This document shows positions 6,352-42,163 of a DNA stretch of 64,000 nt, one piece after another. The notes beneath the pieces are model-generated. The model made no database searches and was not told the DNA's origin. It saw only the letters and a list, made by a program, of their open reading frames with translations. Position numbers and translations under genes: made by a program. Location: the NCBI RefSeq assembly GCF_000337815.1, contig NZ_AOLN01000017.1, forward strand, positions 1-64,000, in the 5' to 3' direction. Origin of the DNA: Haloferax mucosum ATCC BAA-1512 (GTDB lineage Archaea > Halobacteriota > Halobacteria > Halobacteriales > Haloferacaceae). Position 1 is the first letter of the stretch, and every line of letters starts with the position of its first letter.

Positions 6352-6464
6352 AATCGGAGAGAATAAACTTTTCGTGGAGAATGTAAGACAAACGTTCTCG
6401 CAAGTCGGCGGAAATACCGCCCGAGATGTATGCTTTTATCTTGCGTCGTCACATGAACCGAATC

Positions 6465-6480
6465 CATGGAGGCGATATAA
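6465..6480 (+). promoter_or_regulatory. Shine-Dalgarno deciding a GTG start
   Basis: GGAGG at 6468-6472 lies 8 bases before the GTG at 6481. An ATG at 6466 inside this motif is followed by an in-frame TAA after four codons, so the GTG is the only good start for the antiporter. Confidence 0.7.
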
Positions 6481-8388: not shown

Positions 8389-8392
8389 CGCA

Positions 8393-8584
8393 TCACCGCG
8401 TTTTCTTTTTAGACGCTCTTCGTGCCCACCGCACGAAGACGGCCCAGTAGCCGACAGTGATGGCGACGAGGACATACCAGAGGGGTGCGCCGAGGTCGAG
8501 ACTCGGGACGAGACCCGAAGACGCGACGCCGGCGGCCGCGGGCAACGCGAAAACCCCCGTCAGTACAGTCGTCGTGGGATTCAT
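8393..8584 (-). CDS. Small two-TM membrane protein
   Basis: 63 residues from MNPTTTVLTG, with two hydrophobic segments (LTGVFALPAAAGVASSG and WYVLVAITVGYWAVFV) and a basic C-terminal tail, RWARRASKKKTR. An in-frame ATG three codons upstream (8593) is an equally possible start. The much longer open frame to 8821 is basic and Arg/Ser-rich, so it is not coding. Its stop is 4 bases from the convergent antiporter stop. I do not recognise a named family. Confidence 0.65.
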   Translation of the reverse strand: MNPTTTVLTGVFALPAAAGVASSGLVPSLDLGAPLWYVLVAITVGYWAVFVRWARRASKKKTR

Positions 8585-8777
8585 CGTCAGCATAGTCTCT
8601 GGCTGTGAGGTATGAACGTGACGGAAGCACCATATACGTTCATGATGGATGACGTGACAGCGAGTACGGCAAGCGCGACGACGAAGAGAGCGGTCTCGCG
8701 GCTGACTGTGGCAGTCTCGGGGCAGTGAAACTGAAGGTTGGTCGAAATAAAACGAATCAGTAACTACGGCTCGGCGC

Positions 8778-9911
8778 TTACCGGCTGAACTCGATTGCCG
8801 CGCCCTGTCCGAATCCGACACAGAGCGACGCTAGACCGCGGTCTACGTCCCGTTTTATCATCTCGTGGATGAGCGTCACGGGGAGGCGCGCGCCGGAGGC
8901 ACCGAGCGGGTGGCCGAGGGCGATTGCGCCGCCGTTGACGTTGAGTTTGTCCTCGTCGATGCCGAGTTCGCGGCGGGAGTACTCACACTGACTGGCGAAC
9001 GCCTCGTTGATTTCGACCAGTCCGTAGTCGTCGATGTCGCGGTCGGCGCGTTCGAGGAGACCGCGAGTGGCCGGAATCGGGCCGATACCCATAACGGTGG
9101 GGTCAACGCCGGCGACGTTGTTGGTGCCGACGGAAGCGAGCACGTCGAGACCGTGTTCGTCTGCGAACTCGCGGCTGGTGACGAGGACGGCGGCCGCGCC
9201 ATCGGTGATCTGCGAGGAGTTCCCCGCGGTAACAGAGCCGTCACCCGAGAACGCCGGCGGGAGACCGCCGAGTGCTTCCAGCGACGTGTCGTGTCGGATG
9301 CCTTCGTCTTCGGTGACGACGCCGTCGTCCGTCTCGATAGGGACGATTTCGTCGTCGAAACGGCCGGTCTCGGTCGCGTCGGCGGCGCGCTCGTGGCTCC
9401 GGAACGCGAACTTGTCTTGGTCTTCGCGGGAGACTTCGTACTCCGCGGCGACTTTCTCGGCAGTCATCCCCATCTGGAGTTGGAAGACGTTGTACTGCTC
9501 GCTCAGTTCGGGGTGGAGGTGCTGGTAGGAGTCGCCGTCCATCGGGACGCGAGACATGCTCTCGACGCCGCCGGCGATGATGCACTCGCGGTTGCCCGCG
9601 GCGACGGCGTCAGATGCCGAGATGATGGCCTGCATGGACGAGGCGCACCAGCGGTTGATGCTCGTCGCGGGCGTTCCCTCGCCGAGTTCCGAGAGGAGCG
9701 CGATGACACGAGCGACGTTGTTGTCCTGTTCGGCGCGTTGCTGAGCGACACCCCACATCAGGTCTTCTACGTCGTCCGCAGAAACGTCGTGTTCGTCGAG
9801 GATGTGGTCGATGAGGGCAATCGAGAGGTCCTCGCTTCGAACGTCTTCGAAGACGCCACCGGACTTCCCGAACGGCGTTCGATACGCGGCCGCGATGACT
9901 GGTTCTGGCAT
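8778..9911 (-). CDS. Thiolase family protein (acetyl-CoA C-acyltransferase)
   Basis: 377-residue type II thiolase. It should condense or cleave acyl-CoA and acetyl-CoA in fatty-acid or acetoacetyl metabolism. The nucleophilic Cys is at about 89 (INRWCASS), the His in GGAIALGHPLG, and the second Cys in CVGFGQG near the end, so all catalytic residues are present. The ATG at 9911 begins MPEPVIAAAYRTPFG, the typical thiolase N-terminus; the upstream in-frame codons cross the TATA box. It is divergent from the AAA ATPase gene. Without an acyl-CoA dehydrogenase nearby, the direction (synthesis or breakdown) is open. Confidence 0.9.
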   Translation of the reverse strand: MPEPVIAAAYRTPFGKSGGVFEDVRSEDLSIALIDHILDEHDVSADDVEDLMWGVAQQRAEQDNNVARVIALLSELGEGTPATSINRWCASSMQAIISASDAVAAGNRECIIAGGVESMSRVPMDGDSYQHLHPELSEQYNVFQLQMGMTAEKVAAEYEVSREDQDKFAFRSHERAADATETGRFDDEIVPIETDDGVVTEDEGIRHDTSLEALGGLPPAFSGDGSVTAGNSSQITDGAAAVLVTSREFADEHGLDVLASVGTNNVAGVDPTVMGIGPIPATRGLLERADRDIDDYGLVEINEAFASQCEYSRRELGIDEDKLNVNGGAIALGHPLGASGARLPVTLIHEMIKRDVDRGLASLCVGFGQGAAIEFSR

Positions 9912-9931
9912 GCCACACAATGAGGGTTCAA

Positions 9932-9950
9932 ACACCATAAATAGTTTAGA
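9932..9950 (-). promoter_or_regulatory. TATA box for thiolase gene
   Basis: On the minus strand, CTATTTATGG lies about 28 bases before the ATG at 9911, consistent with a leaderless transcript. Confidence 0.5.
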
Positions 9951-10076
9951 ACTCGTAAGACGTCGCAACGAGTTGTTTTGCGGCGGGTATCACGGATTTC
10001 GAGGCCGGTATCGGAGCGAGCCAGCCTCGGAAGCGCTCCGACGCTCTTATGCGTCTGCCCCGGCAATTTCTGGAGG

Positions 10077-11480
10077 ATGAGTGAACGGGCGCTCGAGGTT
10101 GTCGAGTTTCTGCTGACGGCTCACCTCTACACCGACGACCGAACGCTTGACGAGAACGACCTTCCTCCGCGGTACCGGCGCGTCTTCTGGGCGGACGCCG
10201 GCGACGACGATGACGACGATTCGTCCGCGGCCGGCATCGAGCGACCGCTCGTGGTGACCGACTCTATCGCGCGGAAGGCGACAGGAGTCGAACACCCCTG
10301 GGACGCGATTTCGGACCTCATGTTCACCCAACGTGAGGATTTCTCCGGCCGCCTCTCTCTCACGCAACCCGAGATGGCGCTGGAGTGGTTCGTCAACCGT
10401 GCGGACTACGACCGGTTGGTGACGAACCCGACTATCGCAAAGGCGGTCGAAGGACGCGACGACGTGGACGTAACCCACGAGGCGGCGAGGGAGCAGACGC
10501 GGCCGATTCACGCCGACCGCGTGTGGATCGACAGCCTGCTGGACGAATACTTCGACGACGAGGACGATGCCGAAATGCTCGACCTCGTGCAGGTCCGCGC
10601 ACCCGAGGAAATCGAGATGACCCTCGACGACCTCGTGCTCACGACCGACCAAGAAGGCGAGATTCACAAGCTCATGAAGGCCATCGAGCACCGCGAATAC
10701 CTCGCGCAGATCGGTCTCCGTGAAATCGGGAAGATTCTCTTCGTCGGTCCGCCCGGGACCGGAAAGACGACCGTTTCGCGGGCGCTCGCCCACGAACTCG
10801 GACTTCCGTTCGTCGAAGTGAAGCTCTCGATGATTACGAGTCAGTATCTCGGCGAGACGGCGAAAAACGTCGAGAAGACCTTCGAGGTCGCAAAGCGACT
10901 CTCGCCGTGTATCCTCTTTATCGACGAGTTCGACTCGGTCGCAAAGACGCGCCGGTCTGACGAACACGCCGCGCTCAAGCGCGCCGTCAACACGCTCCTC
11001 AAGAGCATCGACGACATCTCGCTGATTCGAGACGAGGTGATTCTCATCGGCGCGACCAACCACCCTGACCAACTCGACTCGGCGGCGTGGCGACGCTTCG
11101 ACGAAATCGTCAACTTCCCCAAACCGGACTACGGAATGCGCGCCGACATCCTGCGCGTCATCACGAACCGGATGGACATCGACGAGTTCGACCCCGAAGG
11201 CATCGCCGACGTGACCGAGGGACTCACCGGCTCGGACCTCCGACTCGTCCTCCGCGAAGCCGTCCTCGAAGCGCTCACCGAAGAGCGAATGGAACTCACG
11301 CAGGATGACCTGCTCGAAGCCGTCGCCGACTTCGAAGAGCGGGACAACCTGAAGAACCTCGATATGATGTCGGACTCGTCGGAACTCGTCGCCGGGTCAG
11401 ACGACGGGCACGACCACAGTCACGACCACGCGGACGAACACGAAGGCGAGACGCAGAAAGACGCCGGCGCGGCGAAGTAA
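10077..11480 (+). CDS. AAA ATPase with His/Asp-rich C-terminal tail
   Basis: 467 residues. The C-terminal half is an AAA module: Walker A GPPGTGKTT near residue 223, Walker B CILFIDEFD, sensor GATNHPDQLD, and a second-region arginine-containing helical lid. The N-terminal 180 residues are acidic and not a domain I know. The last 30 residues are rich in His, Asp and Glu (GHDHSHDHADEHEGE), a likely metal-binding tail. It resembles single-domain proteasome-activator or spastin-like ATPases, but no proteasome-type HbYX end is present. The ATG at 10077 is chosen because the upstream codons encode non-haloarchaeal-like basic sequence and a TTAT box lies about 30 bases before. Confidence 0.8.
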   Translation: MSERALEVVEFLLTAHLYTDDRTLDENDLPPRYRRVFWADAGDDDDDDSSAAGIERPLVVTDSIARKATGVEHPWDAISDLMFTQREDFSGRLSLTQPEMALEWFVNRADYDRLVTNPTIAKAVEGRDDVDVTHEAAREQTRPIHADRVWIDSLLDEYFDDEDDAEMLDLVQVRAPEEIEMTLDDLVLTTDQEGEIHKLMKAIEHREYLAQIGLREIGKILFVGPPGTGKTTVSRALAHELGLPFVEVKLSMITSQYLGETAKNVEKTFEVAKRLSPCILFIDEFDSVAKTRRSDEHAALKRAVNTLLKSIDDISLIRDEVILIGATNHPDQLDSAAWRRFDEIVNFPKPDYGMRADILRVITNRMDIDEFDPEGIADVTEGLTGSDLRLVLREAVLEALTEERMELTQDDLLEAVADFEERDNLKNLDMMSDSSELVAGSDDGHDHSHDHADEHEGETQKDAGAAK

Positions 11481-30630: not shown

Positions 30631-30687
30631 AAGCCTAGGCCGGGATTTGAACCCGGGGTCTCGTCCTTACCAAGGACGCGCTTTACC
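30631..30687 (-). other. att site: displaced 3' fragment of tRNA-Thr
   Basis: 57 bases match the 3' part of the intact tRNA-Thr gene at 42092-42163, with two differences (30643 and 30653). The fragment holds the anticodon arm, T arm and 3' acceptor strand but lacks the 5' acceptor and D-arm 5' half, so it is not a functional tRNA. The two differences swap a T-stem pair from A-T to G-C and so preserve pairing. It marks the left end of the element and is probably the original chromosomal tRNA end, displaced on insertion. Confidence 0.9.
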
Positions 30688-30708
30688 CCGCCGCTTTCAG
30701 CGGCGGAA
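30686..30708. repeat. Hairpin just inside the left att site
   Basis: CCGCCGCT-TTC-AGCGGCGG is a perfect 8-bp stem with a 3-base loop directly after the tRNA fragment. It resembles the foldback ends of IS200/IS605-type elements in haloarchaea, or a terminator. No transposase is nearby, so the origin is uncertain. Confidence 0.5.
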
Positions 30709-31091
30709 AGAGGCTACCTTTGCCGGCTTTCGCCCACTTCTGACTCTCTATGTCAGAAAACACTACACCTACTTTTATATAGTTAACGGGTACTCCCCGG
30801 CGTGTCGTACCAATATCACCCGGAAACGCTACACGGCTTCCGCCTCGAATCCCCATCACGTCCCTCACTTTCCCGTTCGTACTCCGCGCTCGTTTATAAG
30901 TGTACTTCGGGCTAATGAGCGAAACCCGACTCTTGCCTAAGGATGCGTGATAATGGTGGTCGTCTTGAGCGGCCCACCGCATCGAGGGGTTCGTCAATTT
31001 CTTGTGATGTAGCGGGGTAATCGCCAGTATACTTGAGGGTCTGGTCGATTGGGCTTTCCTCAATATCCGGAAAGCAGTCGGAATCGTCTTA
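30709..31091. other. Element left end, no supported gene
   Basis: A 15-bp element-wide repeat sits at 30977-30991. The 126-codon minus-strand frame at 30683-31063 is basic and runs into the att hairpin, so I do not call it. In the frame of the next gene, coding-like sequence (LEGLVDWAFLNIRKAVGIV) runs before its GTG, starting after a TGA near 31008. The 5' end of that gene may therefore have been lost or miscalled. Confidence 0.4.
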
Positions 31092-31472
31092 GTGTCATTT
31101 TTAGTTGCTATCGTCGTTTCCCAATACTACGATACCGGAGAGACATACGCCCGTATCGGAGAACTCTTTCGGGGGAAATCAGCTGTGGCGGTCGCGTTAA
31201 TCGTCATCGCTCTCGGGGGTTCGTTTCTCTCCTCTATCCTTCTGCCCCACCTCGTTCGAGCATTTACCGACCTACGGGTTCTCAGCTCGGCTCTTGGTTT
31301 CATCTGCTTTGCCGGGTTGTATCTTGCTAACGGAGAAGTGGACGAGTGGGATATGAACGACAGAAGCCGATTTATGATTGGATTGGTCGTCGTCGGTTCG
31401 GTTCTGTTCGTCGGGCCGTGGGTCTATGAACCACTCCTCCGCTGGATTACCGCGCAAATCCCGTTCATCTAA
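31092..31472 (+). CDS. Three-TM membrane protein of the element
   Basis: 126 residues from GTG 31092. Hydrophobic segments are SFLVAIVVSQYY, AVAVALIVIALGGSFLSSIL, SSALGFICFAGLYLA and FMIGLVVVGSVLFVGPWVY, separated by acidic loops. The frame stays open about 80 bases further upstream with coding-like sequence but no ATG, GTG or TTG, so it may be 5'-truncated. No family is recognised. Confidence 0.6.
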   Translation: MSFLVAIVVSQYYDTGETYARIGELFRGKSAVAVALIVIALGGSFLSSILLPHLVRAFTDLRVLSSALGFICFAGLYLANGEVDEWDMNDRSRFMIGLVVVGSVLFVGPWVYEPLLRWITAQIPFI

Positions 31473-32133
31473 TCGTTGTTCGGACGAGTGTCCGACTTCA
31501 TCGAGGGACGCTTTACTTCTCTAAGTTAACGCCGATGAACGACCGCCCATACGCCCCGTTTTCCGGGATTCTGAACCTCCCGAAATCGACGGCGTCGGCA
31601 ACCCTATTTACCTGACCTCAGACGGGAAAATTCTCGGCGCGACTTACTAACACTCGCGCGCGGTGTCCGGATGAATGTTCTAACCGGGGGTTTTACTTCG
31701 ACAATTGTCGTTGATTCTGTGGTGGTTGTGTCAATCTTACGCCGATTATTCGTGCGGCTTCTCTCGCGCTTTCTCGGGGCGTTTGTCCTTCGAGATGATG
31801 ATTCCCCTTCGGTCGAAAAAAGAATCCCGTAGCGAGCTTGCTGTGGCGTCTGGTGGGAAATGGGTGGGGTATCGGTGGTCGGGGTTCGGCGGGTGGTTGT
31901 CTGCCGGCGGGGAACGGGGGCCTCCTACTATGTATATACAGTAGGTGTCCCACCACTTCCCGTCTAACTACTTGTGACTAACCGCATCGAGGGGTTGTAA
32001 TAGACCAGTACACTACAACAGTAGAACACTCAGTAGTTCACCCACAGTATGTCTCCTATAGTAGGTGGCATAGGAGATACACAGTAGGAGACTCACCTTC
32101 GAGAACACCGCAGTTGGTACGTCGATTGTCGAA
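31473..32133. other. Regulatory/intergenic region of the element
   Basis: About 660 bases. 31525-31650 holds a 41-codon start-less frame that reads like a protein C-terminus (GNPIYLTSDGKILGATY). 31921-32090 holds clustered CAGTAG repeats and one copy of the 15-bp repeat (31982-31996). Frames at 31693-31956 on either strand are basic or Ser/Gly-rich and not convincing. Confidence 0.45.
31921..32090. repeat. Cluster of CAGTAG-type short repeats
   Basis: CAGTA(G/C/T) or TAGTAG occurs at 31939, 32006, 32019, 32031, 32045, 32059 and 32082, with an inverted CTACTA at 31925. CTCCTAT at 32054 and ATAGGAG at 32070 also form an inverted pair. The spacing of 12-23 bases between the last six copies resembles an iteron or operator array. 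Confidence 0.6.
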
Positions 32134-32346
32134 CTATTCGGGTTTCTCGGAACAGACGGCGTCCTGTAATTCGTCGTACAGCTCCGGGTGATGCTCCCGT
32201 AGTATCCCCGCGTCGGTCGTCAATTCGTCCTCTATCTTCCGACGAACTCGGGAGACTGCCTGATACCGGAGGTCGTCGTCGGCGTCGTCGTCTCCCTTGA
32301 TGAGTTCGCGCTCTCGTTTCGTCATCAGGGCGCGGCGAAAGACCAT
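32134..32346 (-). CDS. Small acidic provirus/plasmid-type protein
   Basis: 70 residues; the core is MTKRERELIKGDDDADDDLR followed by a helical VSRVRRKIEDELTTDAGIL and HHPELYDEL. Similar proteins are common in haloarchaeal proviruses and plasmids, as far as I recall, with unknown function. GGAG lies 8 bases before the ATG at 32346, favouring this start over an internal ATG at 32325. It is divergent from the SWIM gene across a perfect palindrome. Confidence 0.75.
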   Translation of the reverse strand: MVFRRALMTKRERELIKGDDDADDDLRYQAVSRVRRKIEDELTTDAGILREHHPELYDELQDAVCSEKPE

Positions 32347-32388
32347 ATAGTGTCTCCTGCGTGCGAGGGGTTAGTAGTTCCTATCCTT

Positions 32389-32400
32389 TACAACGTTGTA
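32389..32400. promoter_or_regulatory. Palindromic operator candidate
   Basis: TACAACGTTGTA is a perfect 12-bp palindrome in the divergent region between the small provirus-type gene and the SWIM gene. It lies next to the TATA-like CCTTTAAAAG at 32412-32421, where a repressor could cover both promoters. Confidence 0.45.
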
Positions 32401-32442
32401 GTATTTGGGAACCTTTAAAAGAGTGGCCGATAGACTACTGAG

Positions 32443-32517
32443 TACGAAGCGCGGTATCGCCGTCGCAGAAATGGCCGGTGCTGGAACACCGACCGCGCTT
32501 CGTGGAGCCACGAAGCA
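32443..32517 (+). promoter_or_regulatory. Structured leader of the SWIM gene
   Basis: CGAAGCGCGGT (32445-32455) and ACCGCGCTTCG (32492-32502) form a perfect 11-bp inverted repeat. A second, shorter one, GCTTCGTGG-agc-CACGAAGC, follows at about 32497-32516 and ends just before the ATG. The two pairings share bases, so they are mutually exclusive, as in switching leaders. Confidence 0.5.
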
Positions 32518-33048
32518 ATGTCAGCTAACGACTCAACGGCAAAAAAGAGCATCGTCACCGAACTGAATTTCGGCGCGAAGACGTCGAAGCGCGTCTCGTG
32601 GGAATCGTGGGAGTTCGCGGTCGAAGCCCCGCATCTGGTTCGCGTCACCAACGCCTCCTACGGCTTCGAGAAGGCCGACCACTCGTATCTCGTCGGCGTC
32701 GAAGACCGCGACGGCGTCCTCGTTCCGGCGGAGTGTGAGTGTCCGGCAGACAAGTACAACGAGGAGTACGACTGTAAGCACAAAGTCGCGCTCGCCACGG
32801 TCGGCGGCCCGGTCGTCCTCGAAGCCGCCGTGAACTTCCCAACGCCGAGCGGGAATCCCGAGCGGTCAAACGCATCGACGGTTGCGGACAAGCTCCGCGC
32901 AGACGGCGGGGCAACGACCAAGCGAATCGGCGGGGAGTCCAAACCCCTCGATGCGGAGGAACACGACGAGTGTGACTGTGCGGAACTCTCCGACGACTTC
33001 CCCTGCTGGCCCTGCGTAAGAGACGGGAATCGGGAACTCCCCGAGTAA
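32518..33048 (+). CDS. SWIM zinc-finger domain protein
   Basis: 176 residues. The SWIM motif CxCx(n)CxH is visible as CECPADKYNEEYDCKH at about residues 75-90, after two strands that include VEAPHLVRVTNASYGFE. The C-terminus has a second cysteine group, CDCAELSDDFPCWPC. SWIM domains bind DNA or proteins; short haloarchaeal versions are common on plasmids and proviruses. A copy of the element-wide 15-bp repeat (inverted) lies within its codons at 32943-32957. Confidence 0.85.
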   Translation: MSANDSTAKKSIVTELNFGAKTSKRVSWESWEFAVEAPHLVRVTNASYGFEKADHSYLVGVEDRDGVLVPAECECPADKYNEEYDCKHKVALATVGGPVVLEAAVNFPTPSGNPERSNASTVADKLRADGGATTKRIGGESKPLDAEEHDECDCAELSDDFPCWPCVRDGNRELPE

Positions 33049-33093
33049 TTCGCCAGTACCGTCTCTCAATCCCTCTTCTCTGTTCAGTTGCGG

Positions 33094-33453
33094 TTAGAGC
33101 CAGTCCACCTTGCTCTTGAGCATCCCACCGACGCCGAGGAGGAACAGGAGTTCGAAAATCTGGCTGGCTTGTACGAAGGCAGAGGGAACGAGGTACTGAC
33201 CGACGCCCGGAAGTCCAGCCCAAAAGACGAAGCCCACCACGACAAAACCGAGCGCGTACCGCGAGTTCCAATATTTGGCGGATGCGTAGACTCCGAGAAG
33301 CGGGAGTGCAGAAAGCGCCAAATACGCGAATCCGGCTTCTTGGGGGCCGTGGGTACTCTTGAGGACAACGACAATACTGAGGAGGACGACTGACGGGATG
33401 GCAAACTCCTCGAAGGTGCGACGTATGCCGTCGGTTAGGGAGGGCGCGGCCAT
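33094..33453 (-). CDS. Element membrane protein, 3-4 TM
   Basis: 119 residues starting MAAPSLTDGIRRTFEEFA. Hydrophobic helices are SVVLLSIVVVL, FAYLALSALPLLGVYAS, LGFVVVGFVFWAGLPGVG and IFELLFLLGVGGML. No family is recognised. It is convergent with the SWIM gene and lies just downstream of the restriction-modification gene on the same strand. Confidence 0.7.
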   Translation of the reverse strand: MAAPSLTDGIRRTFEEFAIPSVVLLSIVVVLKSTHGPQEAGFAYLALSALPLLGVYASAKYWNSRYALGFVVVGFVFWAGLPGVGQYLVPSAFVQASQIFELLFLLGVGGMLKSKVDWL

Positions 33454-33514
33454 AGTCGCATATATGTTTGATTGACACTAAAAACCGTGGGACGGGAACA
33501 CCCCAACCCTCGGA

Positions 33515-36500
33515 TTATGCGAGGTCGTCGTACTTCTCTAACACCGTCTCGAAGTAGTCCTCGTCCATCAAGCGGGGATTCTGGACGCGGTGGAAGTCGT
33601 CAAGTACGAACGCCGTTTGCTCGCGGTCAAGACCGTAGGCGTGGAACGCGGCGGCGTCAAGTTCGGCCTGTATCTCGCGGCGTTCCTCCATCGTCGTCGC
33701 CGGCTCGATGCCACCCAGTCGGTCACGCATCTCCTCGAACTCCTCCCCGTAGCAGTTGAGCCGAGCAGCTCGCTTCCAGAGGTAGTCGAACCACTCGTCC
33801 CCCTCAGTAAGTCGAGGTGTCTGTGATTCCTCAAACTTGTATTTCGGGATGTGAGTATTGACCTTAGTGCGGATAAGGAAGTCGAATGGGATACTGTTCA
33901 ACAATCCGACGAAGACAAACAGTTCCTCGTTGGTGAACTCACGTTTGTAGGCCGAGTGCAGAGGGCTATCTTCCAGAACCTCGCCATTGACACCTATCTC
34001 GTATGGTTTGACTGTCCGGACACTATCCAAACAGACAATCTCGGGAGGGATAACGCTCGCAATCATCGTCCGTTCATCCGATGAACGGGCAATATCACGG
34101 AATACAATCCGGTATTCCTCACAATCTAATTTTACGTCAGAAGCCGATAACGGTTCCCCTCGCTTCTCTTCCAGTAGGTTGTTTACAAACGCCTTCTGCG
34201 ACTTTCTGGTTTCCTCTCCACCAAACTGCTCGTAGATGGCCCGCTTCAACGTACCACTATTGAACGCTTTTTCTCGAACTCGATATTGTGCGCTCTGCTC
34301 CGGATTATCTTCACCAACACTCCAGAACTTGGGACTGTCAATATCGTCAAAAACAGCGTTATTATGACAGAATTGGTAGAATTGTGCACCTCCGTATACC
34401 GGATAGTCGCCCGCTGGCTCTTCCGATTCGATTAAATACTCGTCATCATATGCAAGAATCAGTTCACGGTGAGCCTCTGCTTTCCAGACAGAATCTCTAT
34501 CCTGTGAAACCGGAGGATGCTTAAGAATCTCATTAAGCACATCTGCCTCTTGTTGACTGGTGACTGCGGGGAAGATACGTGCTTCCGGCGAATAAGATTC
34601 CAGTACTCGACGGGGAATCTGTACTGTTTTCTCTATGGAATTATCTAATACAGACACATCCCGTTGTCGGAATATCCCCCGGAGAGATTCTGTACGGCCT
34701 GAGTTCTTGAACGTCAATATACCAAACCGATAGCGGTTGTCGATTCCGTCAAATATACCCTTATTTTCAAACTCGATTAGGCTCTGAATCTCGGTTTTAT
34801 CCAGCAGATGTGTTCGGAGGTCTTTGGTAGCAGACCCATTGAAGATGTTTCCGGGTAGGACTTGGGCTACGTATCCATCTGGACGAGTTATACTGAAAAC
34901 TCTCTCCAAAAACAAGGCAGAAAGGTCGTTCTCGTTGGTGTTTGTCTGCCCCGCAATAGTCGGAGATTGCATCTCGAAGGTAGTTCCGTCTGTGAAGTAA
35001 TCCTGCTGTCTCTCCATCTGAGTCTGGTATTCTTTCCACGCTTCCTCTATCGCATCATCTTTGAGTAATTCCGAGATTCGCTCGTCTTTCTGGTTTGGCG
35101 TCAGGGTGCGAAACCGTTCATCGTACCGTGAGAAGAAGTCGTCTCGACTAACGGTGAGTACGTCCCACGGCGGGTTTCCGATGAGGACATCGAAACCACC
35201 GTCAGAATACACTTCAGCAAATTCGAGAACCCAATTGAAGGGACTCATCTCGGCGACTTCTTCAGGGGTGATATCCTCTATTCCCGCCTCTACGAAGTCC
35301 GCGTGAATGTCGTCTATCAGCTCCTCACGAGCGTCCCGCAGTTTCTCGAAAGCGCGACGTCGGTGTTTCTCCGCCATCTTGCTGTCGATGGCCTTCTCGT
35401 GTTTCTCGATTTCCTCGATAATGTCCTGATAGCGGTCGCGGACGCTGTCCCCGCTGAAACTCCCGAGCCGGTACTGCTCGTCTCCGTTCGTCTCAGGGAA
35501 GCCCGTGTACCCGATGAGACTGTTCCCCTCCCGTAGGTTGAACGCAATATTGGGCAGGGCGAGCGCGTCGTCCTGCGCGAGGTCATCAACGTTCTCCGTT
35601 TCGAGTTCCGAAATGACCGACAACCAGCATCGAAGCTTGGCTATCTCCACCGCCGGCCCCATCAGGTCAACCCCGTAGATGTTGTTGAGGACGGTCGTCT
35701 TCTTTAGCCGGTACTCGTCGGGGTACGCCTCATTCTGCGCGTAGAGGGCCTTCCGGATATTGACTATCTCTTCGAGGACGCTGGTAAGGAAGTGCCCACT
35801 TCCACACGCGGGGTCAACCACCCGAAACTCGTTCACTTCGTCCAAGAGCGGCCCGATAGTACCCATATGACCGGGAAGCCCCTCGATGAGTTCGTACACC
35901 GAGTCGAACCGCTCGGCTTCGTGTTCCGGCCAGTCGCACTCTTCGACAAGCACCGTCTGGAAGCGGTCGAGCAGAGCGGGGCGGACAGTCTCTTCGGCGG
36001 AGAACCGGGTAATCTCGCTCGGCGTGTAGTACGCTCCGAGTTCCTTGTTGGTGTCCGCGTTGTCGCTGGTAATGTAGTTGATTGTCTTCTCGAAGACGTT
36101 GCCGAGAACGCTCGGGTCGAGGTCGGTTGGTGCGCCTTCTGCTGAGAAGCTGTATCGCTCCAAGAGGTCGATGATGGAGAATAGCACCGAGTTCCGGACG
36201 TCGAAATCCCCCTCCTCGAAGTCGTCCCCGCTAATCGTGGGTCGGAAGAGGCCGCCGTTGAGGTACGGAATGTTCTCGAAGAGGTCGATGTTCTGTACCT
36301 CATCGGGACGGTCGTCCGGCTTGTTGTTCATCACGTCGTAGAACAGGGGTTGACAGAACGACTCGTAGAACGAGCCGGCGTACATCCCGTTCTCGTAGGT
36401 GTCCTTGAGTGTACTGAGGAGGTCGGGTTCGACGAGGGCCTTGTCTTCGAGGAACTTGATGAAGACGAGCCGATTCATCAGTTCGACCGCGAAGAGGCGG

Positions 36501-37369
36501 GCGTTGTCCTCGGTCGCCTCCTCTGGAACGACGACGCCGTCACCGACGAGTGAACGGGCAGTCTCTTCGTCGTCGCTGACGATGCCGAAGACGTACCGTA
36601 TGTAGTCGTCGTAGAACTCGTCGGTGATTTCCTCCTTCTTCTCCTTGATGACGCGGCGGGCGTCACCCGCAATGGAGACGAAGTTCTCGTACTCGAAGGT
36701 ACGGACGAGTCGGACGACGCGGTCGCGGTCGGCATCGAAGAGCGCATCCGTGGGGTCGTCGCGTTTGCCGACCTGATTCTCGAAGAGGGCGAGAAAGACG
36801 GGCTGGAGGTCGACCTCCTCGATGACGTTGAGCGTGTAGGAGTCCGGGTCGTATCGGACGAACACCCACCGGAGGCCGTCAGTAGCAAATCCGAAGTCCG
36901 ACTCGAACTCGCGTTGACTCAGCCAGTCCCGCACTTGCCCGACGCCGTGCTTGCGGCTATCGAGGTCTTTGTTGATGGGTTCGGCTTCGATAAGGAGTCG
37001 GGTGGAGTCAATTTCGGGGTGGTTGCGGAGAGAGACGGTGTAGTCCGCGACCTGCGTTTGTCCGCCCGAGAGTCCGCCGGCCTCGGTCGAATACTCGTGC
37101 CCCAACGCATCGAGCAGGGGATTGATGACGGCTTCCTGCGTGAAGGATTCGGGTTGGAGGCCGTCTTTGGTCATTCCGCTCTTGAGCTGGTAGGAGCCGG
37201 CGTCGGCCCGGAGGATGCTTTCGAGGGTGTCGTCGTCTATCTGGTCGCGGAGGTTCGAGACGGCGTCATCAATCGTCTGGATGAAGCGGTCGGTTTCGTC
37301 GTCGGTGACGGTCGTCTCGAAGGCGTCGGCGACGAACTCGGTGGGAACAGATGATGAGTCGGAGGACAT
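33515..37369 (-). CDS. Eco57I-like restriction-modification protein (type IIG)
   Basis: 1284 residues, the size of a single-chain type IIG enzyme. The N-terminal 150 residues resemble an HsdR-type nuclease: TQEAVINPLLDALG, VADYTVSL with D109, then LIEAEPINKDLD with E128 and E130. The usual Lys of (D/E)xK is Glu here. The N6-adenine methylase core follows: NKELGAYYTPSEI, motif I VDPACGSGHFL (about residue 520), and motif IV IGNPPW (about 730). The C-terminal 400 residues should be the target-recognition domain (PVYGGAQFYQ, IPKYKFEES). It is last in the defence cassette. A PglX-like role is less likely because no other BREX genes are present. Confidence 0.85.
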   Translation of the reverse strand: MSSDSSSVPTEFVADAFETTVTDDETDRFIQTIDDAVSNLRDQIDDDTLESILRADAGSYQLKSGMTKDGLQPESFTQEAVINPLLDALGHEYSTEAGGLSGGQTQVADYTVSLRNHPEIDSTRLLIEAEPINKDLDSRKHGVGQVRDWLSQREFESDFGFATDGLRWVFVRYDPDSYTLNVIEEVDLQPVFLALFENQVGKRDDPTDALFDADRDRVVRLVRTFEYENFVSIAGDARRVIKEKKEEITDEFYDDYIRYVFGIVSDDEETARSLVGDGVVVPEEATEDNARLFAVELMNRLVFIKFLEDKALVEPDLLSTLKDTYENGMYAGSFYESFCQPLFYDVMNNKPDDRPDEVQNIDLFENIPYLNGGLFRPTISGDDFEEGDFDVRNSVLFSIIDLLERYSFSAEGAPTDLDPSVLGNVFEKTINYITSDNADTNKELGAYYTPSEITRFSAEETVRPALLDRFQTVLVEECDWPEHEAERFDSVYELIEGLPGHMGTIGPLLDEVNEFRVVDPACGSGHFLTSVLEEIVNIRKALYAQNEAYPDEYRLKKTTVLNNIYGVDLMGPAVEIAKLRCWLSVISELETENVDDLAQDDALALPNIAFNLREGNSLIGYTGFPETNGDEQYRLGSFSGDSVRDRYQDIIEEIEKHEKAIDSKMAEKHRRRAFEKLRDAREELIDDIHADFVEAGIEDITPEEVAEMSPFNWVLEFAEVYSDGGFDVLIGNPPWDVLTVSRDDFFSRYDERFRTLTPNQKDERISELLKDDAIEEAWKEYQTQMERQQDYFTDGTTFEMQSPTIAGQTNTNENDLSALFLERVFSITRPDGYVAQVLPGNIFNGSATKDLRTHLLDKTEIQSLIEFENKGIFDGIDNRYRFGILTFKNSGRTESLRGIFRQRDVSVLDNSIEKTVQIPRRVLESYSPEARIFPAVTSQQEADVLNEILKHPPVSQDRDSVWKAEAHRELILAYDDEYLIESEEPAGDYPVYGGAQFYQFCHNNAVFDDIDSPKFWSVGEDNPEQSAQYRVREKAFNSGTLKRAIYEQFGGEETRKSQKAFVNNLLEEKRGEPLSASDVKLDCEEYRIVFRDIARSSDERTMIASVIPPEIVCLDSVRTVKPYEIGVNGEVLEDSPLHSAYKREFTNEELFVFVGLLNSIPFDFLIRTKVNTHIPKYKFEESQTPRLTEGDEWFDYLWKRAARLNCYGEEFEEMRDRLGGIEPATTMEERREIQAELDAAAFHAYGLDREQTAFVLDDFHRVQNPRLMDEDYFETVLEKYDDLA

Positions 37370-37454
37370 TGATGAATCCGGAGTAGGTTACTCGATTCTG
37401 GTTCGGAAATGGTGATAAACGTAGGGGTACTCAAATCCGTCCGCCCGTTGAGAG

Positions 37455-38225
37455 CTAATAGTCTGCCAGTAGTTTCCGGAGGAAAGGTTCCGCCTTCTCT
37501 CGGAGTTCGGAAACCTCCGCTTCAACGTTATTCTCGGGTATTTGGAAGACAAGCCGACCCGAGTCGGTAATCCCCAATCGCTCGTCGTCGGAGTTGTAGT
37601 AGGTGAGTTGGCGAATGGTGGACAGTTCAACGAATCTATCGACCAAATCTGAGCGTTTGAGGTTGCGCGATTGTGTGTATCCCCGGCTTAATTGTAGGTA
37701 GCCCACCTCGTCGCCCAACTCGCTGATTAAACCTGATAAGTCGTGGTCGTCTGCACTAATATTCCCGAGTTGGCCGAATTTGATACGGCTCACTTCATTG
37801 GCATTCCTGTATTCCTGTCGAATATGCTCTTGCTGGAAGTCTTGGAAGATGTGATAGTCGTCTTCCGCGTCTTCAGGCGACTTACTCAGTAGGAAGGCCG
37901 GGATTCGTTCGTCGGGAATATCCTCCCGTGACTCGAATATAAAACCGCCATCATCGAAATAGAGTACTCGTGCGGAATATGCTTCTTCGTGGGTGTGGTC
38001 TTCTATTCCGTTGTCTCCGAGAGTCTGATATTCACTCTCAACTTCGGTAGAGAACTCAAGGAAATAGCCGTCAGTCAGGTCGGTAAACACCCGCTCAGGA
38101 CGAGAGTTCGGGGTGGAGAGTTGTGTCTGTTGTTTCACTAATCGGCTTTCAAGGTCGTTCGTCGTTGGAGGGCCATCGTCTTGGGGGTCAAGGACACCGA
38201 ACCTGAGTCGTACTTCTTCAGCCAT
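37455..38225 (-). CDS. Unrecognised protein between CBASS and RM genes
   Basis: 256 residues, acidic, without transmembrane segments. It begins MAEEVRLRFGVLDPQDDG and has a strand-rich N-terminal half (GYFLEFSTEVESEYQTLG, ARVLYFDDGGFIFESRED). A helical C-terminal half follows, including VDRFVELSTIRQLTYYN and REKAEPFLRKLL. I see no catalytic motif. It lies 84 bases after the Cap15-like gene and 85 bases before the RM gene on the same strand, so it could belong to either system or link them. Confidence 0.7.
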   Translation of the reverse strand: MAEEVRLRFGVLDPQDDGPPTTNDLESRLVKQQTQLSTPNSRPERVFTDLTDGYFLEFSTEVESEYQTLGDNGIEDHTHEEAYSARVLYFDDGGFIFESREDIPDERIPAFLLSKSPEDAEDDYHIFQDFQQEHIRQEYRNANEVSRIKFGQLGNISADDHDLSGLISELGDEVGYLQLSRGYTQSRNLKRSDLVDRFVELSTIRQLTYYNSDDERLGITDSGRLVFQIPENNVEAEVSELREKAEPFLRKLLADY

Positions 38226-38309
38226 AATATGTGTTTGAAGAGGAATGACAGTAAAACTGACCTTACCGGAGTGAAAGTAAAACCGGACTCAGAATCGGAG
38301 AGGAATCGC

Positions 38310-38966
38310 TCAGAAATCCAGTATTCTTCTCTTGCTTTTGCGCTCAAAGCGCATATACCCGTGATTATTCCTCTGCTCGTCTGTATAGTAGTCTCCTTCG
38401 AGAACTGCGTTCCCCTCCTCGCCTGTAACAAGCCGAAGCCGGTTCGTGCCTTCGTGTATTCGTTGAGTCTCCGGTAACTCGTCACCCGTTTTTCGATTCC
38501 GGTATGTGAATAGAATCTCGGGGTCGCTCTTGTCAGTACGAATAGTCGCACTGGTGCTTTCAGAACGTGAAGACCCCGGATTAACAAATATGACTTCAAT
38601 CATCGACCATCGTTGCTGAACTTCCAGCCGTGGCCCACATTCATCCTCTCCGTTAGATTGACTATCGTCACTGTCCTCCACGAAGGAGGAATTGAACTTT
38701 CCTTTCCAAGTCCCATTCAAATCGGGGGTTGCCAATACGCGTTGAATCCCCGGTAATCGCCAGCCAATATAGTCGAAACCGAGGTAAAATCCAGTGAATA
38801 CCGCAAATGCCGAAATACCCACTACATCGAAATTTAGTGCTATAAGGAATTGGTTGATAGTAGAAGTAATTCCGAGGGCTATAGCCATCAATACGCCGAT
38901 GATTTTCCATCGACGAGTAGGAGTTGAATAGGGATGCACAAGTTCACCACTCCTCCCATAACTCAT
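38310..38966 (-). CDS. CBASS effector, Cap15-like (2TM plus beta-barrel)
   Basis: 218 residues. Two transmembrane helices occupy about residues 20-44 (IIGVLMAIALGITSTI) and 47-68 (VVGISAFAVFTGFYLGF). They are followed by LNGTWKGKF at about 83-91 and a strand-rich domain of 130 residues. This is the layout of Cap15, in which the beta-barrel binds a cyclic dinucleotide and the TM part oligomerises to disrupt the membrane. It follows the CD-NTase gene on the same strand, overlapping by 23 bases if ATG 38966 is used. A GTG at 38939 with GGAGG upstream would remove the overlap and give 209 residues. Confidence 0.82.
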   Translation of the reverse strand: MSYGRSGELVHPYSTPTRRWKIIGVLMAIALGITSTINQFLIALNFDVVGISAFAVFTGFYLGFDYIGWRLPGIQRVLATPDLNGTWKGKFNSSFVEDSDDSQSNGEDECGPRLEVQQRWSMIEVIFVNPGSSRSESTSATIRTDKSDPEILFTYRNRKTGDELPETQRIHEGTNRLRLVTGEEGNAVLEGDYYTDEQRNNHGYMRFERKSKRRILDF

Positions 38967-39855
38967 TCAGGCCTGCGACCGTGTCCTCTGCTGACTGCGT
39001 ATCCCATTTGTCCGGGTCAGTAGAATCAAATAGCGGCCGCATCTCGCTCTGTTCGGTAAATGTGGAGAAGTCCGCGATTTCCAGCCAGCCAAGAATACTC
39101 TCATAGCGGTCTCGAAGCGACTCTGTAAATAGGCCATCATCGACATTATACAGCAAACATTCGAGGAAGTACGAAGAGGCGACATCCGCCTCTAAGTGTC
39201 CACGGTCAACGGCAAAGTCGCGGGCTTTCTTGAACATCCGGACGGTCTCCTTGTAGTTCCCATCGGTCGCCTCCATTTTATCGACACCCTGCTCGTAGTG
39301 TTCCAGCGAATAGTTGATGATGACTCTATCTTCTGTTGGAGGCTTGAACCACATTCCTTCGGTAAACTGTGCGTCGTCCGGATTGGGGAAGGAATGGTAA
39401 ACCCGGTACTGAAGACAGGGAACTACGTCGGCCTTTCTCGGGAGAGGTGTCCCTTCTGAATCGACTTTTATTGCCTTGTTGTCATTCGTCACGTTACCTC
39501 GGTTGAAGTAGCGTTTCAGAGAGGTGAGTACATCATCACGAAAGTCACGAGAGTTATAATCAGAGGAGGTCACCCAATTCTCGTATCGTTCTTGCTCGGC
39601 TGGACTAAGGTCATCCAGATTCCGTGTCCAAGGGCCAGTACACTTCACAACAATATCCACGTCCGCCTCTGAGTTGATGGTGTTCGTCGTATTCTTGTAG
39701 GAACCTTGAAGATGAACCTTGTAGCTGTGTTCGAACTGGCTTAGTGCCGAGCGGTCGCTATCAAGTGCTCGTTTGATTACACCGAGTGTATCACTCGATG
39801 TCTGAACGGGGCCTTCTTGCTTCCAACTTTCGAGTACGGAGGTAGGGATTCCCAT
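38944..39855 (-). CDS. CBASS CD-NTase (cGAS/DncV-like nucleotidyltransferase)
   Basis: 303 residues. The catalytic set is complete: the GSY loop at residues 51-53 (LQGSYKNTT), D65 and D67 in ADVDIVV, and the third acidic residue D143 in KADVVPCL. The layout GS, then DxD about 12 residues later, and a distant D in a strand, plus a helical C-terminal half, is that of cGAS/DncV-like enzymes (SMODS). These make cyclic oligonucleotides on phage infection. It is the first gene of the cassette; the next gene encodes the effector. It lacks OAS-specific insertions, and its nucleotide product cannot be read from sequence. Confidence 0.87.
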   Translation of the reverse strand: MGIPTSVLESWKQEGPVQTSSDTLGVIKRALDSDRSALSQFEHSYKVHLQGSYKNTTNTINSEADVDIVVKCTGPWTRNLDDLSPAEQERYENWVTSSDYNSRDFRDDVLTSLKRYFNRGNVTNDNKAIKVDSEGTPLPRKADVVPCLQYRVYHSFPNPDDAQFTEGMWFKPPTEDRVIINYSLEHYEQGVDKMEATDGNYKETVRMFKKARDFAVDRGHLEADVASSYFLECLLYNVDDGLFTESLRDRYESILGWLEIADFSTFTEQSEMRPLFDSTDPDKWDTQSAEDTVAGLNELWEEW

Positions 39856-40011
39856 AAGTGGCCTCGCCTCAATTGACTAATTCTCCAATCTAAGTGAACT
39901 AAAAGGCCGCCAAAGGGGAGTGAAAGTGGACGTCGAATAGATTAACCACGGTTTCCGATATGCAGAGCTTGTTAGAAGTTGATGCCGATGACGTTCTTCC
40001 AGAACGCAAAA

Positions 40012-40055
40012 AAGCCCCGCTGGTGTCACGGGGAACACCAACGGGGTGGGGCTTA
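40012..40055. repeat. Long imperfect hairpin
   Basis: AAGCCCC...TGGTGT, an 8-base loop region (CACGGGGA), then ACACCA...GGGGCTT. The inner TGGTGT/ACACCA and outer AAGCCCC/GGGGCTT pair with a small asymmetric bulge. It could be a terminator, a structured RNA or a DNA cruciform. Confidence 0.5.
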
Positions 40056-40384
40056 CGGGAATCGACGCATCGAGGGGGAGATACTTCCGGCGTCGTCGTC
40101 AGTCGGGGAATGATGAAGTAGCAGGCTCCCCCGTCTTTCGGTGATGGGTGAGCCGGCGGCGACCGGCGCGCGGTGGCTCCCTCTGTGGCTGTACCTCTCT
40201 GTGTTTTACTCTGAGTGTTTGACCGCATCGAGGGGTTCGGGAACCTACGGCTACTCTCTGAGTGTATCGCTTACTTGTGACCAAGCCTCGATGCGTTGAA
40301 CCTCGGTGAAATCTACAGAGTGTATGTATAAGAGAGTAGATAATTAGTGTGTTTCCTCCGTAGTCGCCGTTCGCCGCTCCTCAC

Positions 40385-40398
40385 TACCATTAATGGTA
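40385..40398. promoter_or_regulatory. 14-bp palindrome, operator candidate
   Basis: TACCATTAATGGTA is a perfect palindrome about 30 bases before TTTATATACTA. It lies in the gene-free region and its regulated target is unclear. Confidence 0.4.
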
Positions 40399-40707
40399 AA
40401 GGGTTAATGTAGGATGTGGGGTGTTTATATACTAACTACCAGATATTGAATATGTCTTCCGGGCGTAGTATCCCAATTTAGCAGTAATAACGGCGTTTTA
40501 CCTCGTATTCAACAGAATATCGGGGAATCACTAACAATTCCGTATCGTACTTCGTCCTGACAGTTCTCGGGCGCGCTACCGGAGACTGGCCGCCCAGTAT
40601 GAGTGTATTCTGATAGTTTCGGCGGGTCAGTTCCACCCCTCGATGCGGGGTACCGCGTAGGTCGGGTTCGACGGCGTCACGGAGTTAACCGCGACGGCGA
40701 CGACCCA

Positions 40708-41913
40708 CTACCAGATTTGTTCGACGGCGTCGTTCCGTGTCTCCGCGTCCGAGTGGAGGTACTTCATCGTCGTATTGATGCTCTTGTGCCGGAGCTGTTC
40801 CTTCGCGTGATGCGGCCCGACGTGATTCGCCCAATAAGTGGCGACCCCGTGCCGTATCGCGTACCACGAGATATTCTGGTGAGCCGGTATCGGGACGTTC
40901 CCCCGCTCGATGAGTGTGTCCAGCAGGTAGTTACACGAGTCCTTTCCATACTGCGTCCCGCGCTTTGTCAACCAGAGTTCGTCGCGGTCGGCGTACTTGT
41001 CGTAGGACGCGCGTTCGTCTAACCAGCGTTCCAGCACCGTCGCGGTTCGCTTCTTCAACGAACAGTTCCAATGCCCCTCGTTCTTCGTGGAGTCCTCCTT
41101 CGGGACGTTGAGTTCGTTGTCTTCGAGATTCACCCACGACACCTTTGCTCGCCCCACCTCGATGGGTCGAAGCCCGGTGTCGAGTGTCACCGCAATCATC
41201 GAGGGAACCTTCCACGAGTTCGCCTTCTTGAAGTCTTCCGGCCCAACCTTCTCTTTCGGAACGCCGAACCGTTGCGACAGATACAGCTTCAACCGCTCGC
41301 GTTCCTCCGAGGACATATCGGTGTGGTAGCTTTTCATCGAGCCGTAATCGAGCGCCGCTTCATACAGGGGCTGGAACGCGGCCCGGCGAAGGTACGCCCG
41401 TTCGTCACCGTTCGACTGACTCAGTTGCGGCTTCGGTTCCCACTCGTAGTCCGTCCCGTAGACGTGGTTGGTGAACTTGAAGAACCGCTTAATGTCCTTC
41501 GCGTGGTGGAGGACGGTGGAGTCTATCATCGAGTCCGTCTGATTCAGGAGGTCGATGAAGCGGTCTGCGTGTTCGGGCGTGAACTCCGTGGTGTACTTGT
41601 CCTCGTACTTCCAGAGCCAGCGGAACACCGTTTCCAGCTTGTAGTGCGTACTCTTGAGGGTCGTCTCCGACAGCCCTTCACCCTTCTCTGGATGCTTGCC
41701 GTAGGTAGCTAACCACGTCAGCACTTCCTCTTTGAAGTCGCGGTAGTCGTCCACCATATTCAGCCCGAAGCCTTCGAGGTCTGCTTCGGAGCGTTCGCTA
41801 ACGAGCGGGAAGTCGAACTCCACGGGTTCGGGTGCGGGTGGAATCCCGAAGTCGTCCCCGTCGTCGGGGAGGTCGTTGGGGATGTTGTCGAGCGGGTCGG
41901 GGCGGTTAGTCAC
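40708..41913 (-). CDS. Tyrosine recombinase (integrase)
   Basis: 401 residues. A SAM-like N-terminal DNA-binding region is at about 60-150. The catalytic domain holds R249 (TGLRPIEVG), K272 in the beta-hairpin (VPKEDSTKN), R354 (SWYAIRHGVA), H376 (LRHKS) and the nucleophile Y385 (TTMKYLH). The usual His of HxxR is replaced by an aromatic residue, as in many archaeal integrases. It starts at GTG 41913. It lies beside the intact tRNA-Thr, the normal place for the gene that inserts and excises such elements. Confidence 0.92.
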   Translation of the reverse strand: MTNRPDPLDNIPNDLPDDGDDFGIPPAPEPVEFDFPLVSERSEADLEGFGLNMVDDYRDFKEEVLTWLATYGKHPEKGEGLSETTLKSTHYKLETVFRWLWKYEDKYTTEFTPEHADRFIDLLNQTDSMIDSTVLHHAKDIKRFFKFTNHVYGTDYEWEPKPQLSQSNGDERAYLRRAAFQPLYEAALDYGSMKSYHTDMSSEERERLKLYLSQRFGVPKEKVGPEDFKKANSWKVPSMIAVTLDTGLRPIEVGRAKVSWVNLEDNELNVPKEDSTKNEGHWNCSLKKRTATVLERWLDERASYDKYADRDELWLTKRGTQYGKDSCNYLLDTLIERGNVPIPAHQNISWYAIRHGVATYWANHVGPHHAKEQLRHKSINTTMKYLHSDAETRNDAVEQIW

Positions 41914-42090
41914 GCGGGTTCACCCCCGAATCGGGTGACTGCGCGGGGGCGTTCGTTATAGTGTCCTGACAACTAACGAAATCGCAAGACGGCGTCGGGG
42001 TTGCCGTGTAGCGTTTTCGGGCTTTCTTGCGCATATTTTATTCTCTCCATAGAGAATCGTAAAATGGCGCGAGAAGCCGTGAAACGCAGG
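41914..42090. other. Integrase upstream and right attachment arm
   Basis: Between the integrase start and the att repeat. It contains CACTATAACG on the minus strand (TATA-like, about 41955-41965) and an inverted repeat ATTCTC-tccata-GAGAAT at 42040-42057. The latter may be a recombinase binding site or the tRNA terminator. Confidence 0.4.
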
Positions 42091-42147
42091 AAGCCTAGGC
42101 CGAGATTTGAACTCGGGGTCTCGTCCTTACCAAGGACGCGCTTTACC
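42091..42147 (-). other. att site (element-borne copy) within tRNA-Thr
   Basis: Matches the left att 30631-30687 except at 42103 and 42113. By the usual tRNA-insertion logic the 3' part of the intact tRNA here came with the element. Confidence 0.85.
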
Positions 42148-42163
42148 GCTAAGCTACCCAGGC
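42092..42163 (-). tRNA. tRNA-Thr (GGT)
   Basis: 72 bases on the minus strand. Acceptor strands GCCTGGG and CCTAGGC pair with one G-U and have discriminator T. The D arm is GCTT/AAGC. The anticodon arm CGTCC-TTGGTAA-GGACG gives anticodon GGT. The T arm is CCGAG-TTCAAAT-CTCGG. No intron. It is the integration site of the element, and its 3' half is probably element-supplied. Confidence 0.95.

Follow-up and report, generated by a model that had tools for sequence, protein, structure and literature searches.

A haloarchaeal protein family with a predicted RdgC/RexA-type fold, carried by integrating elements among changing defence genes

A 256-residue gene lying in a haloarchaeal defence cassette belongs to a new family of haloarchaeal proteins, sporadic in distribution, whose members are predicted to share the fold of bacterial RdgC and phage lambda RexA. 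The relatives of this gene are cargo of integrating elements and sit among changing defence genes. We propose, with a probability of roughly 0.5, that the family represents an independent island gene with a DNA-binding product that probably acts in virus exclusion.

The gene in its defence cassette

The window, that is, the whole stretch of 64,000 nucleotides that was analysed, comes from a haloarchaeal genome of 3.37 Mb in 20 contigs (G000). The initial annotation had described a 256-residue gene between a CBASS pair and a restriction-modification (RM) gene, on the same strand and with gaps of about 85 bases. Indeed, the open reading frame was found in this setting (Table 1), directly upstream of the type IIG RM gene at a distance of 85 bases and separated by 84 bases from the Cap15 gene; these three genes and the CD-NTase gene are co-directional. 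Because relatives of like length exist in other haloarchaeal genera, the reading frame is more than a product of chance. The encoded protein is acidic (55 D+E vs 26 K+R), as is usual for haloarchaea. Conserved basic residues are R6, R8, R45, K149 and R224. The neighbouring CD-NTase scored 243 bits against the NCBIfam model NF053871 ('DS2_2_antiphage'), which is below the membership cut-off of 350.

Table 1. Positions of the gene, its neighbours, the ends of the putative element and the four-TM genes found beside three relatives. Positions are those of the window unless a locus is named.
Feature	Position	Strand	Evidence or remark
Second, exact 34-bp copy of tRNA-Thr positions 42114-42147; likely the opposite attachment end	30654..30687	.	
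119-aa hydrophobic protein, ~3 TM segments, downstream of RM gene	33094..33453	-	no Pfam match
Type IIG restriction-modification enzyme (Eco57I/N6-MTase)	33515..37369	-	PF07669 E 1e-24; PADLOC REase_MTase_IIG
256-aa protein of predicted RdgC/RexA fold, window member of the haloarchaeal family	37455..38225	-	ORF, homologues, AF2 model, Foldseek/VIA matches
Cap15-type CBASS effector, N-terminal TM helices and cyclic-nucleotide receptor domain	38310..38966	-	PF18153 E 7e-18; PADLOC 2TM effector
CD-NTase (CBASS cyclase)	38944..39855	-	PADLOC oligonucleotide-cyclase E 3e-102
Tyrosine integrase of the element carrying the cassette	40708..41913	-	PF00589 E 2e-14
tRNA-Thr(GGT) gene, bounding the putative element on one side	42092..42163	-	
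Conserved four-TM protein family	L026 10348-10881; L033 73-582; L077 10397-10948		head-to-head with RexA-like gene

The cassette appears to be part of an element of about 11.5 kb (30654-42163) with a lower G+C content than its flanks. The cargo of this putative element comprises the CBASS genes, the 256-residue gene, the type IIG RM gene, a gene for a SWIM-domain protein and the integrase gene. In six congeners the tRNA-Thr gene is present without the element beside it, and the left flank of the window does not adjoin the tRNA gene there.

A sporadic family of haloarchaeal proteins

A single-sequence search found matches to the protein in 19 of 391 genomes of the class, the window's own included, with identities of about 18-34%, most of them 22-34% over long alignments, and a best E-value among relatives of 2.1e-18. 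A family profile of 17 rows extended the set to 21 genomes, mostly at E < 1e-50, with full-length relatives at about 1e-77 to 1e-104. The same sporadic spread was seen again in further family searches (11/146, 7/170 and 3/125 genomes). All relatives found were haloarchaeal, and in a phylum-wide sample the matches were confined to the window's own family of haloarchaea. None of the same-genus genomes searched carried the gene. One copy resides on a plasmid, that of Haloarcula sp. JP-L23, and some copies, including those at L036 and L077, appear to be broken or truncated.

Among genome contigs, a search with the single protein returned no relative and one with a subfamily alignment returned one named genome, Natrialba aegyptia. 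No relative was found in IMG/VR scanned with three subfamily alignments, nor in a phage collection searched with one family member. Six loci (L030, L073-L076 and L079), all within one genus, hold a subfamily whose middle region has diverged. They occupy one conserved chromosomal site, with S15/S3Ae-like ribosomal genes on one side and a PadR-like/Gat-like pair on the other, and this subfamily looks like a domesticated copy.

Models predict the RdgC/RexA fold

The initial annotation had recognised no known motif in the protein, and we likewise obtained nothing credible from Pfam, NCBIfam, PADLOC, PHROGs or PDB sequences with single-sequence and profile searches. It had also suggested a structure search, and this returned a near-full-chain match of the predicted model to RdgC, together with a match to RexA. 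For the AlphaFold2 model of the window protein (mean pLDDT 83.4, pTM 0.79), the top Foldseek matches in the PDB were lambda RexA (8TWQ; E 1e-4, probability 1.00) and E. coli RdgC (2OWL/2OWY; E 2.8e-4, probability 1.00). VIA-align superposed the model on RdgC with Z 10.3 over 218 residues at an rmsd of 4.7 A; other matches were Iml3 (Z 9.0), CENP-L (Z about 8) and RexA (Z 7.7), and the N-terminal part matched TBP (Z 5.6). The second member modelled was the divergent protein of L026, which is 26% identical to the window protein. Its model (pLDDT 91.4, pTM 0.84) again matched RdgC (E 1.5e-6, Z 12.9, 229 residues, rmsd 4.5), along with Iml3 (Z 9.6), RexA (Z 8.2, large rmsd) and TBP (Z 7.5). In both models RdgC outranked the other matches and covered nearly the whole chain. 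The fold was further matched by RdgC proteins of phages and by unnamed phage proteins.

Both domains of RexA are matched by the predicted models, with a large rmsd that comes from domain swing. In the published RexA structure, which is in a closed conformation, each domain has its counterpart in RdgC (PMC11077077); the large rmsd is consistent with that conformation. All of the matched structures (RdgC, Iml3/CENP-L, RexA and TBP) are DNA-binding proteins. Together, these models provide good support for the prediction that the haloarchaeal family has the two-domain RdgC/RexA fold, consisting of a TBP-like part and a dimerisation part.

At the level of sequence, hhalign gave a probability below 1 for the family against lambda RexA or a four-sequence RexA alignment, and of 0.2 against E. 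coli RdgC, and none of 17 family members had an RdgC match in Pfam. Since neither protein is detectable in sequence, the fold assignment draws on predicted models and does not imply membership of either sequence family. In the phage collection, the gene table of J02459.1 (35825-37940) gives the label 'rexb' to rexB, to rexA and to the gene that follows, and the 'Campylobacter phage' MW057783 has a RexA 100% identical to that of lambda and is possibly mislabelled.

The family differs from each of the proteins that it resembles. RdgC, whose fold is found in bacteria and in phages, is of similar length (303 aa vs 256 aa for the window protein), but it is the product of a bacterial housekeeping gene, whereas the family is archaeal, sporadic and island-borne and has no detectable sequence similarity to it. 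Lambda RexA (279 aa vs 256-266 aa in the family) is likewise mobile-element cargo; it belongs to the CI/Cro immunity region, while the family genes lie outside any such region. The inner kinetochore proteins Iml3/CENP-L and Chl4/CENP-N share the predicted fold class (Z about 6-9.6) and bind DNA, but they are eukaryotic centromere proteins that act as a heterodimer. Kiwa KwaB (PF16162) is a cytosolic defence protein with a four-TM partner, and a Kiwa pair adjoins the relative at L023; KwaB is a separate gene there. At the level of sequence profiles, family members did not match KwaB in Pfam, nor did the window protein in PADLOC.

Integrases and changing defence genes surround the relatives

A tyrosine integrase gene (PF00589) lies within 6 kb of 12 of the 18 relatives, the window copy included. 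The integrase density in those genomes is 2.4 per Mb, at which about 3% of random points would fall within 6 kb; the corresponding nominal tail of 1e-14 should be read as a rough guide, because integrases cluster and the relatives are in part dependent on one another. The integrase is the most constant neighbour of the relatives, ahead of any defence system, although its distance and orientation vary.

The defence genes nearby change from locus to locus. Shedu lies 73 bp from the relative at L021, and KwaA-KwaB of Kiwa are divergent from the one at L023. Type I RM genes occur near the relatives at L026 and L034, a type IIG RM gene near L031, a weakly matching AbiJ-like protein near L028, an Mrr-PQQ (Mrr-like) protein near L036, and DNA methylases near L021 and L077. 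Outside one clade, no fixed defence partner of the family gene was found.

A four-TM neighbour in one clade and a distant sister family

The exception is a clade formed by the RexA-like proteins of L026, L033 and L077 (support 86/79), in which the family gene stands head-to-head with a homologous four-TM gene across gaps of 46, 41 and 54 bp, respectively. The four-TM proteins are 169-183 aa long, with four predicted TM segments and no Pfam match. Lambda RexB, at 144 aa, likewise has four TM segments, and the neighbour clearly recalls the RexA-RexB pairing; the resemblance is one of analogy, and the conserved gene is head-to-head rather than downstream. The window copy branches alone and has no adjacent four-TM partner, and the only membrane proteins in its cassette are Cap15, by virtue of its own TM helices, and the 119-residue hydrophobic protein beyond the RM gene. 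Among the small TM neighbours of the relatives, only those of the three-locus four-TM family are homologous to one another, and we do not claim that such neighbours are enriched in general.

A distant sister family, A7, aligned with the haloarchaeal family at an hhalign probability of 92 (E 5.6e-7, 230 columns). At L078 (G334:C1:966500-986400), positions 5962-10469 hold a tight operon of an A7 gene, a 762-aa prokaryotic Argonaute gene and a gene for an Mre11-like phosphoesterase; the operon has a 4-bp gene overlap, and a divergent 733-aa PLD-domain-like protein is encoded nearby. Argonaute also adjoins the A7 gene at L113, L114 and L115. On two haloarchaeal plasmids, L124 (NZ_CP010531.1, 6953-11331) and L125 (NZ_MN918441.1, 6914-11270), a recurrent unit of a winged-HTH gene, an A7 gene and an 846-bp hypothetical gene directly precedes a CBASS cyclase gene, with a SLATT gene next in L124.

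Alternative functions

The position of the gene raises the question of whether it serves one of its immediate neighbours, as the initial annotation had considered in suggesting a CBASS accessory or a specificity or control protein for the RM enzyme. To the CBASS reading speak the common strand, the location 84 bases after Cap15 and the two plasmids on which a few kb at most separate the distant sister family from a CBASS cyclase. Comparison of 17 neighbourhoods of relatives (12-20 kb each) found a CD-NTase or Cap15 relative in none of them. Conversely, a related CD-NTase is present in 28 of 391 genomes, and of 30 CD-NTase loci only the window's own had the gene (0/29 others), in 1.5-kb flanks that are enough to include its position as in the window and that contained Cap15 at nearly all loci. 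The RM reading, in which the protein would provide specificity, control or protection for the type IIG enzyme, draws on the adjacent co-directional placement and on the RM genes of several types found near some relatives. Yet relatives of this particular enzyme were near only two family members, the one at L023 and the JP-L23 plasmid copy, and were several kb off; other members lie near type I RM, Shedu or Kiwa, or have no RM gene nearby. Type IIG enzymes also have their own specificity region. Thus the co-occurrence with CD-NTase or with this RM gene that the annotation had proposed to check is not recurrent, and because the relatives sit without CD-NTase or Cap15 and beside assorted RM types or none, the kind of setting that the annotation had named as refuting, the gene is disfavoured as an accessory of either system; we regard both readings as very improbable.

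A stronger contender is an RdgC-like protein that serves recombination or maintenance of the element itself, shielding or steering its integration, excision or replication, and has no antiviral role. Here RdgC is the best structural match, phage-encoded RdgC proteins have the fold, and an integrase rather than a defence system is the most regular companion. Against this, the spacing and orientation relative to integrases are not conserved, several relatives directly adjoin known defence genes, and no integrase was noticed beside the diverged subfamily, which is kept at one fixed place in the chromosome, so that we consider this function unlikely, though it is the main rival. The protein might instead regulate the island at the level of transcription or of the nucleoid, binding promoters through its TBP-like N-terminal domain. 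Such a role would fit the alignment of that domain with TBP in both models (rmsd 2.2-3.1 over 78-82 residues) and the divergent transcription of several relatives from a neighbour. The RdgC match, however, spans nearly the entire chain with Z far above that of TBP, and only one TBP-like half is matched, which leaves such a regulator improbable.

Discussion

Of the possibilities raised by the initial annotation, a third defence system fits best, and to it can be added the carriage on integrating elements and in defence islands and the predicted RdgC/RexA-type fold; the defence role itself we hold at about even odds. We infer DNA binding and an exclusion role for the haloarchaeal protein from its fold and genomic context. 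Both RexA and RdgC bind dsDNA non-specifically and do so as dimers, and RexA is RdgC-like and can occur without RexB (PMC11077077). By the same token, and judging from the models, the family protein would form a dimer that clamps or cradles dsDNA largely irrespective of its sequence. It may serve its element as an independent antiviral factor of the Rex type that senses an incoming virus or plasmid through its abnormal DNA or its recombination intermediates. The proposed role of RexA is to detect phage replication or complexes of protein and DNA and to open the RexB channel, whereas in phage Butters the effector is the RexA-like protein itself (PMC11077077, PMC12894663). In the clade of L026, L033 and L077, the signal might similarly be passed to the divergently encoded four-TM protein as a RexB-like effector, while the window copy would act on DNA itself or with an unlinked partner.

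Several points weigh against this proposal. The family does not resemble RexA or RdgC in sequence, the window copy lacks an adjoining four-TM gene, and no constant defence partner accompanies the gene outside one clade. A common fold does not show a common function, and RdgC is a recombination protein. The acidic composition of the window protein gives no direct support to DNA binding, and the DNA binding of lambda RexA did not track with T4rII exclusion (PMC11077077).

More broadly, the family may constitute an undescribed haloarchaeal class of Rex-like antiviral systems, in which an RdgC/RexA-fold DNA sensor acts either by itself or together with a four-TM effector encoded divergently, a tentative suggestion to which we give somewhat less than an even chance. 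Our literature search found no archaeal report of the RdgC/RexA/CENP-L fold; if the suggestion is true, this class and its Argonaute-linked sister family would be an archaeal branch of it. For RexAB, one of the earliest abortive-infection systems found, the trigger has to our knowledge yet to be identified. With its shared predicted fold, its freedom from the CI/Cro circuit of lambda and its occasional link to a four-TM gene, a divergent archaeal set would allow sensing and membrane effect to be studied apart. The fold also connects bacterial RdgC to the eukaryotic kinetochore proteins CENP-L/N, and an archaeal family bears on its distribution across the domains of life. Finally, the proposal would put a testable function on a haloarchaeal family that is currently unannotated.
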